From: an uncultured bacterium
Lineage (GTDB): Bacteria; Patescibacteriota; Gracilibacteria; Absconditabacterales; Absconditicoccaceae
Assembly (NCBI GenBank): GCA_937872535.1
Contig: CALMTC010000010.1
Coordinates: 1-46,810 of the forward strand
Direction: 5' to 3'
DNA length: 46,810 bases
Position numbers and translations under genes: made by a program. Below are positions 6,802 to 16,003 of the stretch, piece after piece (position 1 is the stretch's first letter; every line of letters begins with the position of its first letter). The notes below the pieces were generated by a model. It saw only the letters and a list, made by a program, of their open reading frames with translations, did not search any database and was not told where the DNA came from.

Positions 6802-7248
6802 TTAGTTAAAATGAGGTTTTTGTAGTGCAATAGAATCAGGAACATCCCCAAATCAACAAAGCGGAACCTCTTCTTCTAATGTAGTTAATAATCTCTCAAT
6901 AATTTCATTGGGTACGAATGGTAAGCCTAAATCCAATGGAATTGTATTAAAATTAGCATTCTTAATAACATTTTTTATCTTATTTTTATAATCAGCATTT
7001 TTTTCAATACGAGAAACATATTCAGCCAATGTTTCATAAGTACGATAAAAAATTTGTTCATTTTCTTGATTACTTCTACTACAATAAATAAGCAAACAAA
7101 AAATATCAGCAAGTTGAGAAGCAGCTAATTCTTCAACTACTTCTTTTTCTCATTTTTTCATCTTCATCAAGATTGTCAAATATTTTTGTTTTATAGAATC
7201 AACATATTCGGTATGATCAAAAGATTCTGGCGCATTAAATTTTTCCAT
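6802..7248 (-). CDS. Hypothetical protein, 148 aa, downstream of the giant gene
   Basis: I recognise no family. It is a soluble, predicted helical protein with an acidic and aromatic N-terminus (MEKFNAPESFDHTEY), a central helix-rich part and a Pro-containing segment (LDLGLPFVPNEIIERLL). Two TGA codons inside must be Gly, and the C-terminal 17 residues follow the second. It starts 30 bases after the giant gene on the same strand with no terminator between, so it is probably co-transcribed and may work with that protein. There is no signal peptide or membrane segment. Confidence 0.75.
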
Positions 7249-7278: not shown

Positions 7279-10200
7279 TTATTTATTCTCGTTAATTTCA
7301 TTAGTAGTAGTGACAATAGTTTCTTTTTCCAAAGCATCCTTTCTTTCCAATCTAATATCTTTTGAATTTCAAAGTTTATCTCATTCTACAACTGGAATAT
7401 AAAGAGAAAATTTAGTTCATGTTGATCAATTGATAAGCTCAGCATTAGTAGCAGGGCTATCCTTTGTCCAAGATTCTAATTTAACCGTTCACCCAGCTTT
7501 TTCAAAGAATGTAGCTGATCATGATATTCCTATTCAGTTACTGGCTCTCTTAGCTCATTCACTATCAGTTTCAGATCTCACTGATCACTTCAAAACTCAA
7601 TCAACTTTATCTTTTGGTATTCATAAACCATTATCTTCAACAACAATAGAAACTACATCACCAATTTTTTTAATAGAGATAACTATCTTACCATTTTGAG
7701 GAGTAAATGAAAGAGAATTACTAATCATATTATTTAAGAATCAAACTAACGAAGCTTGGTTAAATGTTAAATTATCCACTTGAGAATCAAGCGTCAATGA
7801 AATTCCCTTTGCTGCAGCTCTTGAACTAAAATTATCAAGGACAAGATTTTCAAGAACCTTCTTAACACCAAAAGTGCTATAAGCTTCTTTTCCCTTATCC
7901 ATTCATCAAACATTCAAATAATTACTTTTAGAAAGATCTATAATAGCCTCCAGTTCAGATATAGTTTTTAGAAAAGCATCTCAAGTTGTATCTAGTGATG
8001 AAATACTAAAAGGACCAATTGGATTGAGCATATCATGTCAAACTTGCTTAGCCGACAAATCAGTCAACTTCATCATCTTTGATCCAATATCTTTTAGATT
8101 CAATAGTTCTTTTTTCAAAGCATCTACAGTAGCCTTATCAAAAGACTTTTTACTTGATTGAAGTAAGTCATAAATAGTTGAAAAAGAGGAATCTATACCA
8201 GTTTTATAAGAAGAAATAATATCGTCTTCAGAAAAAGAGTAGGTAGATTCAATTTGATCCAATGTCATATGTGAAAGTTTATCATAATCCATTTTTTCAC
8301 CCGATCAGAAAGTGAACTTATTAGGATCTTGAGATAAAGACAAAAATTTCATAACTCAAGGTTCTTTCAAAGCAGGTAGTTGTAAATTGTGAACATGACG
8401 ATAAAGAGTATCAAAATTAGCTTCCAAAATTAAATTCTTCAAAGACGCAAGATCTGATAAAGAAAAATCAGGATGAGATTCTTTAATAATAGATATTTTT
8501 CTTGGCACATCACCTAAAGAATCAGTAGAAATTCACCAAGTTTTATCCAAGTAATCTAATATTTGAGGTCTATCAACTTCTCCAATAGCAATACTATCTA
8601 AATCCAAAACTTTTTCTTTCTTCTTTAGGCCAAGAAAATCAAAAAAACCACAAATTCCATTTTCCATCAAAATTCTTATCTGGCTACTGTTCAATCCCGC
8701 CTGACTCAAAATTCTCACTTTCTGAGAAATTTCTTTTCGTGTATAGTTTCCAACTTGCGCTCATCTCTCACTTCCGACATTATGAGCATCTATAACTGCC
8801 TTTTTCTGAAGATCAGTCAACTCTCAAACCTTCACTTTTTCTCGTTTTGGTCAACCTTTAGTAGTAAACATTTCTTTAGTAAAAAGAAGTTCTTCTGCTT
8901 TAGTTAATCTCTGTTCATCACCAAGCATGGCATTTTCTCTAATAGTTTCATCAGAAATCTTATTTTTTGAGCTTTTATTAATATCAAGAACAATTTCTTG
9001 AGCCAAAGAGTCGATAATCGTTTCTTGAGTCAAAGCATCTACTTTTTGCAAGACAACATCTTTTTCTGTTCAAAGAACATCTGTTTTATTATTTTCAACG
9101 ACTTGATCAGTCTTTTCATTCAGCCCAAGTTTCTTTTCTAGTTTTAAATCCACAATCAACTCTTTAATAGTCTCCAGCTGAGAATCATTCTTAATATTTT
9201 GATATAGCCACTTAATATCATCAATATTGTTTTTTCGAGAATCATGATATTTTTTCTCAGCCAAGTCGATCATTTTCTCAAAAACCTGAGTTTGTTGTTC
9301 TCCTTCTGAGTTATCATAAATAACTTTACAATCATCAAAATTCTGAGCAAGATTCATAGACTCCTGTAAAATTTTTACTTTCTGCTCTCAGTGAGTATTT
9401 TCATAAATCCACTCCAAATGTTTTTTTAAATTTCCTCATCATTTTATTCCATTTTCCAGAATTTTTACTTTCATATCATCTGCAACAACCTTATGAAGCC
9501 AGTCTAAATCTTGTGCTCTAGCAGTAAGAGCAAGAATCTCATCAAAAATCCTAGCTTTTTGCTCTCATTGAGTTGTTTTATAAAGAGACTGCAATCTATC
9601 GACATCATTTGACATCGTATTATAAATAGCAATCAAATCATCCATATAAGCAAGTTCTAAGATACCATCTCAAGTTTTTTGTCAATCCCTATATTTAGAA
9701 AGCCAATTTATTTTCATATCATCAAAATTCTGAACAAAATCAAGTTTAACAGCTTCTTGAGGGATATTATTATCAGATTTAGCTTCTTGAGGCCCAGTTT
9801 GTTTAGTACTATTTTTTATATCATCAAGAGAATTTTTAGACAAAATAGCTTCTTTTTTTAAGAGTGTATCTTCTTTTGTTCAAAGTTTATCTCACATTTG
9901 AGGTCTATTAAGTTCTCCTATAAGAACCTCATCCAAAACTTTTTCTTTCTTCTTTAGTCCAAGAAAATCCAAAACTCAACAAATTCCATTTTCCATCAAA
10001 ATTCTTATCTGGCTACTGTTCAATCCCGCTTGACTCAAAATTCTCACTTTCTGAGAAATTTCTCTTTGAGTATACTCTCCAACCTGAGCTCATCTCTCAG
10101 TTCCGACATTATGGGCATCTGTAACTGCTTTCTTTTGTGCATCATTAAGATCTATACCAAGAAGCTCTTCTGCTTTCAGCAAATTTGCTGCGTCATCGAG

Positions 10201-13200
10201 CATAGCATTTTGTCTAATAATTTCATCAGGAACTTTATTCTTTGAGCTTTTATTAATACTACTAATAATTTCTTGGGTCAAAACATCTGCTTTTGAAGAA
10301 GCAGACTCAGAAACAGCAAATCAATCGAAAGAATTATCTCAACTTTGAGAACCTTCCACCATAGAAAAATCACCAGCATGTCCCCCACGAGAAACCAAAG
10401 ACTTAACATTTTTCATTAAAGATTTTCACTCCAAATAAGCTGTAATCGAAACAAAAGCAGTCGTTGTTAGCAATGGAGAAAGAGTAGTAACATAACCTGT
10501 TTCAATCGTTTCCTTTATTTGAGCATTAAGAAAAGCTTGAAGTTTAATCAGCTGTGAATCAAAAGCATTTACAGAAGATAAACTGTTTTCCACTTCAGAT
10601 TTCAGAGATTTAACAATAAGAGACAGTTTTTCCAAAATACCAGAAATTTTATTTTTCAAAAATTCTTTTTGAGAAAGATTTTTTTGATCATTATCCAGTT
10701 TTTGATAATCATTAACCAAAGATTCAGCTTCCTTCATTTGATCCATTCCTTCTTGCAAAGCCTGTTCATCAATCTTCAAAATTTCTTGTTCCTGCTTCTT
10801 TCCATCCATTTCTTGAAATTTCTTCTTATCGTCGAGAGCTTTTTTACGATTACCATACTCCGTCAATAAATTAGTAAGTCATTCTTTTACTTTCATTAAA
10901 CGGTTTTTTTCTGCAGGCGTTTTAGCATTTTTAATTTCAGATTCGACACTTTGGAGACGAGATTTGAGCAATAAATCCGGTGGTAATGAATCAGAGTTCA
11001 ATTTATTTACTTGTAAAAAAACCATCATTTGTCCTTCTGGATTATTTGGATCATTAAGTATTTTTGACATATCATTCTTAAAACTTTCAAGAGATTGAAT
11101 CTGCTCTTTAGCCAAATCAAGTCATTTTTGAACGATATTTTCCAAGGGTTTATAGCGAGGAGAATCAGGCATAACTTCTTTTTTTGTAGCCATATCTACA
11201 AAAACAAATTGTTTTTTAGCATTTTCTATAAGAGTAACCCCTAAAGCATTAATATTTCCTTTTATTTCTGCTAATGTATCAATAGATTTCAGTTCAAGTG
11301 CGTCATATCTAGCCTGAATTTGTCTCCCAGTAGAGCTTTTATCTAAGCCCCAATTCATTCAAGATTTTGAACCAGACATTGCGGTAGAGAAGGCGATACT
11401 TGATGCAAATAAATTCCCAAGATTTTGAGGATTAAGTTGTTGAGAAAAAGCATCTTTCATAGAATCCAAAACATCACCTACAGAACCTTTATCTTGAGAA
11501 GAAGCATCAGCAGATGTATTAAAAGACTGTCTTATTGGTTTCCAATTAGTAACTGGTCATTCAACTCAAAAATACGCACTCACTCAAGCATTTAAAGTTA
11601 CCATTCAAATATCTACTACATTTTCTAGAATCAGCTCATTAACAATAAGGTCTCAAGTAAATTTAAGAGTTTTAGAAGATGTTTCCTTTTTTGGAGATCC
11701 CCACCCCAATCAAGAAAGAGTATTTTTCCACATTTTATCTCAAAGTGGATTCATTTTCATAACTATTCCTGAAGTAGCTACATCAAAAACCAAATCAAGA
11801 GCAAATCTTCAATTTCCAATATAATTTCCCTGGTTATCTAAATATCAAAATCATTTTCCAAAACCCTCAACAGCAGCATCTGATATATCTTCCCCATCCC
11901 ACCAAGCGCCACCAGCTTGTCTCAATGAAGTAAGTACTCATGAAGCACCTCTATAAGTACCAGAAAATGCCATTCAAGCAAGCCAAGGATTTTGTGTACC
12001 TAAAGTAACTACAGTAGAGACAGCTCAAGCTGCCATCATAGATGTTAATGTAATCGTAGCTTTAAGAGGATCATTTTTTACATCTTCCCAAAATTGTTTC
12101 AATCCATCCGAAAAACCTTCAGAGAAAGAATCTCTCATAACATCTTCAAAATTATTATGAGAAAAATCAAGTTTTAACTCTATTCCAAGTTTTGCCAAGT
12201 GAGGAGCAGAAATAACAGTATTAAGTGGTTTAGGTTTTACAGCCAATAAAGCTTTTACATAGGCTTTATCTTGTTCCAGTGCCAAAGTATAAACCTTCTT
12301 CATGATCTCTTCTGTTTTGATTCTCAAAAGAGTGTAGCCCATTCTTGGAGCATTTTTCAAAGCTTCCCATCTTTCACGGCCAGCAGCAGTCAAAGTTTTA
12401 TAATTCATATTTAAATCTTCATATTCTGCTTGAGCCTTTGTTCTTTGCTGATAAATACTCAATTCATCAGATAATTTTTTAATCTGACTACCATAAGGTT
12501 CTATTTCAGTCGAATATTTTTGATAACTCTTAGCGTCCATTGTATTAAGATGCATATCTTGCAGATATTCATATTGAAGCGTAGCATCTTGAATTTTTTT
12601 TCAGTATTCAGTATTCAAAATTTGTCTTGCAGATTCAATATGAGGAATTTTTAAAGCAGAATCTTTTCAAGGAGTAAGTTTTTCAATTAAAGAGCTTCCT
12701 CAAGCCAATACAGCATTTCATTTCATAAATCCCTCAGAAACAGTAACCGTATAAGGTTTAAGTTTTTCATCAACATACAGCTCGACAATATTTTTGAGTT
12801 TAGAGTGTTTTTCAAATGCCAAAATACTTTTTTCAAGAGGAGACCCTGAAGGTATTTGAGAAAAAAGTTTTCTGGCTACTTGTTCTCCTTTAGAAAAGTA
12901 TTCAGACAATAAAAAAAGTCTTAGCTTATTTGCACCATCTTCTGTAGAAGGAAAAGCTATATTTCCAGCTTCAAATTGTTTTTTTTCACTTTCAGTCGAA
13001 AGTTTTTGAAGAAATTCCATAGTTTTCCAATAATAATTAACACTACCAATCATATTTTCCAAATTCATACCAGTTATGAATCATTCATCACGAAAAGGAT
13101 CCTTATAGCCAGGAAAAACAGTAAGATATTTTTTCATTAAATCAGTAAAATTTTTTGCCACATAAGGTAAATTTTCTGGTTTCACATTTTTACATCACAC

Positions 13201-13707
13201 AAAAGAAGAAATAGTTTCAGCAGTAATAACATGATCCACATCATCAGTAGTTTTTATTTTATTGACAAGACTCGTCCAAGCTGGAATAGAGTTAAAGTCA
13301 ACACCCAATTGCTTAAGTCATTCAGCAGAAGTAACAGGCTTATCAGCTTTTTGAGCTAAATAAAGCTGAGCTTCATAAAATCAGTTTACTTTAAGACTTT
13401 CTTCAGCAGTCAAAACTCCATCAATAACAACACCTGGTTCTTCTCTTACAAAAGCAATATAAGATTCTAATATTTTCACCTCTTGTTGGCTCATTGTTTC
13501 GACAGGTTTCCCTTTTATTTTTTCAAAAATCTGAGAAAATAAATTCTTAACATCACTTACAAATTCTTTATTTTCTGGCTTCTTCAAATCTTCAGCCAAA
13601 GTTTGCCAGTCAGCATGAGTAAATCCATCCAAAATCTTTTCTGTTTCATTAATTTTAAGCTGATCCTGAGATTTCAAAGTATCTATTTTCAATTTATCCA
13701 AGCTCAT
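7279..13707 (-). CDS. Giant 2142-aa multi-region protein with histidine-kinase-like C-terminus
   Basis: Triplets checked in this frame show no TAA/TAG from 13707 to the TAA at 7279, so with TGA=Gly it is one protein. Residues 1-780 are mostly helical and unassigned, with Gly/Ala-rich hydrophobic stretches near 560-700. About 786-1094 is charged and coiled-coil-like. A module with NAML, AHNVG and RILMENGICG occurs twice (about 1148-1271 and 1576-1716). Between them lie helical repeats built on GEQKVKILQESMNLA. The C-terminus resembles a sensor kinase: LSAKQVGHDMLNPIGPFS with His1891 as a possible phosphoacceptor, an N-box (NNMISNSLSF), VEDNGLGIP, NGIGISGSATFFEKAGG and GTKFSLYIPV. No signal peptide or receiver domain is seen. 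Kinase activity and purpose are inference; the upstream 94-aa and downstream 148-aa genes likely share its transcript. Confidence 0.88.
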
Positions 13708-13734: not shown

Positions 13735-14019
13735 CTATATTGTCGACAGCATAGCATCTAATTCTTGATCTGCTTTCTCATGTTCCACTTGTTCTTTCTC
13801 TTTCATACTATGAACATATTCTACAGCACGCTGGAGAGCTAACTTAGCTTTTTCATCTTTAATCCCATGGATAGCCTTAGTTAAAACAGCTAAAAAACTA
13901 TCAACCATTGGTTCATCAACAAAATCTGTCTGCAAAAGCGAAACCATTCCTTCAGCCAACTCCCAAAAAGGTTTTATTTTCTCGAGAATTTTCAGTAAAA
14001 GTTGTTTTTTTTGAAGCAT
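13735..14019 (-). CDS. Small helical protein, 94 aa, upstream of the giant gene
   Basis: I recognise no family. The product is predicted all-alpha, with an amphipathic N-terminal half (LLKILEKIKPFWELAEGMV) and a charged C-terminal helix rich in Glu/Lys. It ends at a true TAG and contains no TGA. Only 27 bases separate it from the start of the 2142-codon gene, so it is the likely first gene of that unit. The divergent 14020-14221 region would carry its promoter; I could not pick one on this strand with confidence. Confidence 0.7.
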   Translation of the reverse strand: MLQKKQLLLKILEKIKPFWELAEGMVSLLQTDFVDEPMVDSFLAVLTKAIHGIKDEKAKLALQRAVEYVHSMKEKEQVEHEKADQELDAMLSTI

Positions 14020-14221: not shown

Positions 14222-16003
14222 ATGATCAGAATTATAAGAGACGCCCTATCTCTCATTATAGCACTAGCAATAGTCGTTGCAATTTTATATTTCACAGACC
14301 TACCAGTTTGGATCAATAATAGACTGGCGATGAGAAGCTCAGCTACACAAGTTGTTGATTCAATCAGTGAAATAAGCCAAGAATCTGGAAGCTGTCTAGC
14401 TCCTTGGGGGACTCTTTTGCCAAATGGAGCATCAGTAATAGCTTATAGAGACATATCAGTCTCAGATATTTCTCAGTGTAAAAAAGAAGTCAGAAAATGT
14501 ATAGATGGAAATCTTATAGGAGATTATCAGTATAGAGTTTGTTCAGACAATAATGAATCAATAACAACACTGACAGAAAATGATATAGAAAGTTCAATTT
14601 CTGAAACAAATAATAGCAACGATTCTCTCTGAACTTCTTGTATAGCTCCTTGGGGAAGAATAGTCAGAAACAATGACTATCTTATTGCTTTTAAGTCATC
14701 AGTTTCTCAAAATGGCCAATGTACAAGCGAAAGAAGATACTGTACAAACTGATCTCTCTGATGATCATACCAATATAGCACTTGTACCATCAAATCAAAT
14801 AGTAGCACAAATTGATCAAATTCCAACAATAATTCTTCAAACAACTATTCTTGTACCACACCTCGAGGAACTAATGTAAAAAACGGTTCTTATGTACTAG
14901 CATACAAAACAGCGAATGCTTTTTTACCAAACAAATGCGAATACGAAAAAAGATCATGTGTCAATGGGTATCTAGCAGGAAAAAATTATAATCAATCATG
15001 TAAACAACGAAATATTTCTTATGCTGAATATCAAAATACTATCCTAAATAACAATAAAAAATCCTGCATGACTCCACGAGGTTCTATAGTCAATCACGGA
15101 GTTTCAGTGCTAGCTTATAAATTTGCAGCTTTGACTTGTAATCAAATTTCTCAAGGGATAGAAAACAACCCAAGTGAGTACAGAACATGTAACAATTGAA
15201 TTCTTAAAGGATCTTATAACTACGCTTATGCTTGATCAACACCGTCTTGCCAATTTACCTGTACAACTCCTCGAGGATCTGTTATTAATCACGGAGACAA
15301 TATCGTAGCCTTTGCTCAAAGCTCAGTACCTTACGGTCAGTCTTGCCAGAGCCAAGTCAGAACTTGTAGCTTTGGTCAATTGCTTGGTAGTTATCAAAAT
15401 AAATCATGCTCAGTAAGCAATACTCCAAGTCAGTCTTGTACTAATACAGCCCGAGGAACGATAGCAAATGGGCAATCAGTAACTGCTTACTCTGTTAGCT
15501 CAGTACCAAACGGTCAATCTTGTGAAAATTACAAAGAAACAAGAACTTGTTTTAATGGATATCTCAATTGATCAAATCCATACTCAACTTGTTCTAGTCA
15601 AAATAATCCGACTCCAAACCCTAATCCAAATAGCGATAGTTGTAAACTATCTTCTGATGGAGTAGTTGTAGCAAATTATTCTAATCTCCCAGCTTATAGA
15701 GATCCAAATAACTGTTCTGATTCTATCAAAAGATACTGTTATCATGGTTATTTAGGATGAGACTCGACCTACTCTTACGGTTCTTGTAAAAATTCACCAG
15801 CTCCAACTCAAAATTCAAATTCAAACCCAGTAGTTCCAAATTGAGATAGCTGTAAATTACCTTCTGATGGAGTAGTTGTAGCAAATTATTCTAATCACCC
15901 AGCTTATAAAGACCCAAATAACTGTTCTGATTCTATCAAAAGATACTGTTATCATGGTTATTTAGGATGAGACTCAACCTACTCTTATGGTTCTTGTAGA
16001 TAG
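14222..16003 (+). CDS. Membrane-anchored or secreted Cys-rich repeat protein, 593 aa
   Basis: I do not recognise a named family. Residues about 8-28 are a membrane segment (SLIIALAIVVAILYF), so the rest is probably outside the cell. The body is about eight imperfect repeats of 60-70 residues following SC-x-(T/A)PRG-x-NG-x-V-x-AY-x-C-x-R-x-C-x-NG-x-L-x-GSY-x-C, with about four Cys each, which suggests disulfide-linked modules. Linkers are rich in Asn, Ser and Pro (NPTPNPNPNSD). The last two repeats are nearly identical in DNA, 210 bp apart. Many Gly positions in the repeats are TGA. A consensus promoter precedes it, hinting at high expression. A surface adhesin or structural role is a guess. 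Confidence 0.85.
15635..16000 (+). repeat. Recent tandem duplication within the Cys-repeat gene
   Basis: Segments 15635-15790 and 15845-16000 (period 210 bp) are almost identical, including silent positions; each encodes the block from DSCKL through VVVANYSN to YSYGSC. The near identity points to recent duplication or gene conversion. Confidence 0.85.

Follow-up and report, generated by a model that had tools for sequence, protein, structure and literature searches.

A giant patescibacterial protein with a histidine-kinase tip and an undescribed joint module: a candidate polymorphic effector

What is the function of a protein of more than two thousand residues that ends in a histidine-kinase-like ATPase, encoded by an uncultured patescibacterium with a genome of 1.25 Mb? 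The window analysed here, all 46,810 nucleotides of the stretch, is one entire contig (C10) of the 23 that make up this genome. An earlier note, made from the letters alone, had read the locus as a single open reading frame if TGA is taken as glycine, and this reading holds. The frame opens with ATG, closes with TAA and contains no internal TAA or TAG; it lies on the minus strand, running from 13707 to 7279, a strand that the earlier note had left unnamed. In 50 shuffles of the window, the longest frame stopped by TAA and TAG only reached 270 codons, against 2143 for the giant, which is thus not a product of chance. The expectation that the standard code would shatter the giant into small frames is also borne out, since under table 11 no minus-strand frame of the window exceeds 258 codons. 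The features of the locus are collected in Table 1. Within the trunk, the hydrophobic stretch is a possible membrane-active segment, and the helical-repeat region between the two modules is perhaps an older, displaced tip. No known defence model in PADLOC matched the giant, the partner gene or the 3' gene.

Table 1. Features of the giant and of the two genes that flank it (window positions).
Feature	Position	Strand	Description
148-aa gene	6802..7248	-	directly 3' of the giant; weak Tim44-like match
Giant ORF	7279..13707	-	2142 aa; table 25 (TGA=Gly); 60 in-frame TGA
C-terminal tip	7282..8610	-	aa 1700-2142; helical linker and histidine-kinase core
HATPase_c domain	7390..7749	-	aa 1987-2106, with N, G1 and G2 boxes; Pfam
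H-box-like motif	8008..8052	-	around H1891 (VGHDMLNPIGPF); HDMLNP; seen in the sequence
Module copy 2	8611..8985	-	aa 1575-1699; core 1628-1687
Helical-repeat region between the modules	8986..9939	-	aa 1257-1574; from sequence, no Pfam match
Module copy 1	9940..10260	-	aa 1150-1256; core 1185-1244
Trunk	10261..13707	-	aa 1-1149; no signal peptide; trunk of giant G016:C100 (L038) aligned over aa 131-1027
Hydrophobic Gly/Ala-rich trunk stretch	11563..12075	-	aa 545-715; hydropathy maxima at aa 552 and 687
Small helical partner gene	13735..14019	-	94 aa; immediately upstream of the giant; proposed role in export or assembly

The earlier note had placed a sensor-kinase core at the C-terminus, and several searches agree with it. 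The HATPase_c domain scores 50.2 bits against a Pfam cut-off of 26.4 and is recovered independently by a six-frame search of the whole genome; NCBIfam sensor-kinase models span residues ~1918-2083, and sensor kinases were matched in the PDB too. The H-box-like motif and the three boxes that had been picked out are likewise present, as HDMLNP (H1891), N1993 and N1997 in the N box, DNGLGI at 2025 in G1 and GIGI at 2058 in G2, together with a GSTGTKF motif. Of the two profiles suggested for checking the core, HATPase_c was thus found, while Pfam gave no match for HisKA. Since HisKA went undetected, and a model of the tip's structure built from one sequence had a pLDDT of 44 and was set aside, the DHp assignment rests on the HDMLNP motif and on the NCBIfam models, which reach to about residue 1918.

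It was also correctly noted that the giant has no receiver domain, none being found by Pfam. The genome holds four HATPase_c loci, namely the giant, a membrane-type histidine kinase on contig C15, and a GyrB-like (C12) and a MutL-like (C4) locus, the last two assigned by eye. The C15 kinase is the only HisKA-positive kinase of the genome, and the sole receiver domain starts right behind it. No cognate response regulator for the giant's kinase was therefore found in the genome, which makes the giant an orphan kinase.

The module that had been described as used twice is indeed present in two copies, which share 79% amino-acid identity and, over 198 bp, 90% DNA identity, pointing to a recent duplication or conversion. 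Its core is ~60 residues long, or ~110 if the flank is counted, and has almost invariant positions (A-H, R, L and G); AlphaFold2 predicts from 14 sequences a compact five-helix domain (mean pLDDT 82.6, core 95-98). The possibility that it is a known domain was rejected: searches with the giant protein returned nothing for the module in Pfam, NCBIfam, PHROGs or PADLOC, PDB sequences gave no match below E 0.09, and Foldseek gave no PDB structure at E <= 0.001. The plasmid and phage collections searched do not contain it, and no description of the module or of partner-giant operons was found in the limited open-access literature.

Within its own genome, the module is confined to the giant. A single-sequence query found it in 46 of 353 genomes of the class, on giants of 560-3559 aa, and a phylum-wide sample found it in 8 of 380 genomes, 7 of these 8 belonging to the class, to which it is thus nearly confined in that sample. 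Outside the phylum, 63 of 192 Bdellovibrionota genomes matched the module in a profile search. When 84,980 species were scanned with sequence patterns, 12 loci were confirmed, all in Patescibacteria, two Bdellovibrionota orders and one Woesearchaeon; as these patterns were derived from patescibacterial sequences, more distant carriers are still possible. Some of the module-bearing proteins are not giant. In the Woesearchaeota contig (L110, NZBB01000010.1), putatively assigned by binning to a DPANN archaeon, the module occupies aa 2010-2078 of a giant repetitive ORF of 3040 aa. A Bdellovibrionota ORF (L135, G791:C95, 1-2427) has the complete module twice, along with several partial segments that match it weakly. 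Behind the module, small beta domains with weak SH3/Tudor/KIF2A-like matches are frequent (just after it in L088 and L041; also L139, L143); they are possibly a second recurrent element.

The place of the module within the proteins is best appreciated from eight pairs of giants, each from different genomes, that share a trunk through the module and lose homology there. The overrun past the module is 0-1 residues in five pairs and 14-41 in three, and a further 240-1300 residues follow. The tips beyond it include, by Pfam, a Zeta_toxin (over the cut-off in L084, below it in L078), PP2C phosphatases (L088, L089; Stp1-like PP2C also by NCBIfam), a calpain of the Peptidase_C2 family (L076), a calcineurin-like phosphatase (Metallophos, just under the cut-off, in L040, with a homologous tip in L094), 2H-SAK with FHA (L041) and cNMP_binding (in the tip of L078), and two Bdellovibrionota module proteins carry Fic tips. 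Conversely, one type of tip can sit on different trunks, as PP2C does in L088 and L089 and the phosphatase in L040 and L094. ART-like tips in L039 and L109 and a protease-like tip in L038, noticed by eye, were unsupported by searches and are not counted. The trunk of the window giant aligns with that of the G016 giant (L038) at E 1.6e-33, and no closer relative was found among the 353 genomes; this second giant also has two modules and carries no HATPase_c in its tip.

The eight pairs and their differing Pfam tips thus reveal N-terminal parts that are conserved and C-terminal domains that vary and are exchanged at a fixed joint, and the case for an architecture of trunk, joint and exchangeable tip is strong. 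On the evidence of these sequences, the kinase is an exchangeable C-terminal tip, and the defining features of the system are the module, where trunk homology ends, and the small gene upstream. The kinase-centred reading of the earlier note therefore survives for the kinase core and gives way as a definition. Its proposal that the same architecture be sought in other table-25 genomes turned out well in part: the architecture is there, with other tips, and occurs also in standard-code relatives and in Bdellovibrionota. The suggestion that the giant is a candidate for an undescribed system is upheld.

The small gene upstream has relatives in the same position. Homologues of the partner, at E 1e-19 to 1e-9, are found immediately upstream of the giants L085, L086, L042, L084 and L038, which have other trunks and unrelated tips. 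By profile search, 40 of the bacterial family's 49 genomes encode members of the partner family, frequently more than one. Where the gene next to a partner copy lies on the same strand (n=17), it is an ORF of at least 900 aa in 10 cases, compared with 2 of 86 background genes (p=5e-8), a background that is local because the loci were chosen around partners. Standard-code relatives have a gene of similar size upstream of their giants, its sequence mostly unrecognisable. By analogy with the LXG targeting factors (PMC9600955), we infer that the partner may be an export or assembly factor. On a set of giants that lie behind partner genes and are mostly module-less, a Pfam scan identified no tips. 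At four loci (L187, L188, L189, L191), a module-less giant of ~1000-1100 aa with a similar C-terminus lies directly 3' of the partner gene, and these giants recur in several genomes of the window's family. Divergent from the partner gene of the window is a 593-aa ORF (14222-16003, plus strand) that has no match in Pfam or NCBIfam.

With regard to export, a simple hydropathy rule calls signal-peptide-like N-termini in 18 of 20 Bdellovibrionota module proteins and in 0 of 24 patescibacterial giants, so that the proteins bearing the module are exported in the first phylum and lack a Sec signal in the second. At many patescibacterial N-termini, a short EF-hand-like acidic stretch (e.g. DKNNNRNISAEEL), seen by eye in L038, L039, L040, L042, L085 and L086, stands in place of the signal peptide. 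A T4SS has been described in Patescibacteria (PMC12102498). As for immunity, a linked small gene is present 3' of the giant, and no conserved association of it with giants was found. It has no convincing relatives and was rejected as a conserved immunity protein; inspection by eye of the flanking genes recognised no shared immunity family. A weak case can be made for it as a possible tip-specific accessory or immunity gene. As no immunity gene was recognised, we do not class the giant among the classical polymorphic toxins; the survey of these toxins states that organisms deploying polymorphic toxins on other kinds of hosts often do so without immunity genes (PMC3482391).

With a trunk, a joint, a swappable enzymatic tip and a dedicated small partner, the giant has the architecture of a polymorphic effector and would work like one. 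We lean, by somewhat more than an even judgement, towards the view that a predatory or episymbiotic patescibacterium uses the giant as a polymorphic effector, with a dedicated export or assembly partner and a histidine-kinase payload. What we infer of its delivery, processing and target runs as follows. The ~95-aa upstream helical protein would bind the trunk as a dedicated targeting or assembly factor, as conservation of the operon suggests, and the trunk, with its hydrophobic Gly-rich stretch and no signal peptide, would leave the cell by some non-Sec route, through export or through delivery on contact with a host. The five-helix module is the joint between trunk and payload and, as the end of homology there shows, the point of payload exchange; it may also be the site of payload cleavage. 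The kinase may phosphorylate response regulators, and those of the partner cell are the most plausible targets, given that the producer's one receiver domain sits beside its own kinase. The near-identical second module suggests that recent recombination may have placed the kinase tip behind an older helical-repeat tip.

Several points speak against an effector. By the hydropathy rule, none of the 24 patescibacterial members has a signal peptide, and no immunity gene is recognisable. As a payload, a histidine kinase is out of the ordinary, and its targets could lie within the producing cell; the FHA and cNMP-binding tips, scaffold-like or regulatory, fit internal signalling too. In addition, some of the Bdellovibrionota members are not confirmed predators, and some module-bearing proteins are not giant. 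A broader reading, in which one undescribed platform with a single helical joint crosses Patescibacteria, Bdellovibrionota and Woesearchaeota, delivers enzymatic tips into prey or host and, with the kinase of the window, rewires the two-component signalling of the host, is tentative, and we doubt it more than we credit it.

The main rival is a cytoplasmic orphan sensor, whose trunk and helical repeats would sense a host-derived or internal signal and whose kinase would phosphorylate the single response regulator of the genome. The intact kinase motifs and the missing signal peptide are consistent with it, and the one receiver domain is a possible partner; that receiver, however, directly follows the sole HisKA-positive kinase, which is of the membrane type, and the trunk is common to a giant with no kinase, while relatives carry proteases, phosphatases or a Zeta toxin in that position. 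A plain orphan sensor kinase, with which the trunk of a kinase-less giant and the swap joint sit poorly, was demoted accordingly to a rival that we regard as unlikely. Lower still we rate a giant surface or attachment protein with an accessory enzymatic tip: the hydrophobic stretches of the trunk and the giant predicted membrane proteins reported for Vampirococcus lugosii (PMC8080830) recommend it, but the signal peptide is absent, Pfam finds no adhesion domain, and an ATP-dependent kinase would have no substrate outside the cell. We hold to be just as improbable a classical polymorphic toxin that serves in competition among kin and whose cognate immunity protein is encoded at 6802-7248. The trunk-joint-tip architecture, the small same-strand gene directly 3' and the Zeta and Fic tips, which are known toxin types, would suit such a toxin; the 3' gene lacks a conserved association, though, the flanking genes show by eye no shared immunity family, and neither histidine kinase nor calpain is mentioned in the survey text searched (PMC3482391).

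Judged against known systems, the proposed effector resembles polymorphic toxin systems in its conserved N-terminal region, joint module, variable C-termini and some tip types, Fic/Doc among them (Zhang et al., 2012, PMC3482391). The giants differ in that no immunity gene was recognised, known trafficking domains were not found in the window protein, their tips are rich in signalling enzymes, and their joint module is new and concentrated in predatory or episymbiotic lineages. LXG effectors with Lap1/Lap2 of T7SSb (PMC9600955) similarly pair a small protein gene with an effector of polymorphic C-termini, whereas the giant has one partner and not two, and the sequence of this partner gives no match; no LXG or WXG domain was matched in the giant in Pfam or NCBIfam. 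HisKA-type sensor kinases (WalK/YycG, PDB 3sl2) share HATPase_c, the N, G1 and G2 boxes and an H-box-like HDxxNP. Unlike them, the giant lacks a transmembrane sensor architecture and a detectable Pfam HisKA, is an orphan, and bears its kinase at the end of 2142 residues on a trunk common to a non-kinase giant. Giant proteins are also found in small-celled predators, in the available text on predatory Omnitrophota (the lipocone paper, PMC12419801), where they combine peptidase and histidine-kinase-relay domains, and on Vampirococcus (PMC8080830); these have transmembrane segments and extracellular domains, unlike the window giant, and that text does not describe the module or the partner gene.

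The same joint in exported Bdellovibrionota proteins ties together two unrelated predatory lineages. To our knowledge, little is known of the effects that ultra-small patescibacteria have on the cells on which they live, and the module and the partner gene, which mark candidate effector operons by sequence, offer a direct handle on these effects: the tips point to likely activities and the partner to a likely targeting factor. If the reading as an effector is true, an exchangeable histidine-kinase payload would amount to a novel means of disturbing the signalling of another bacterium.
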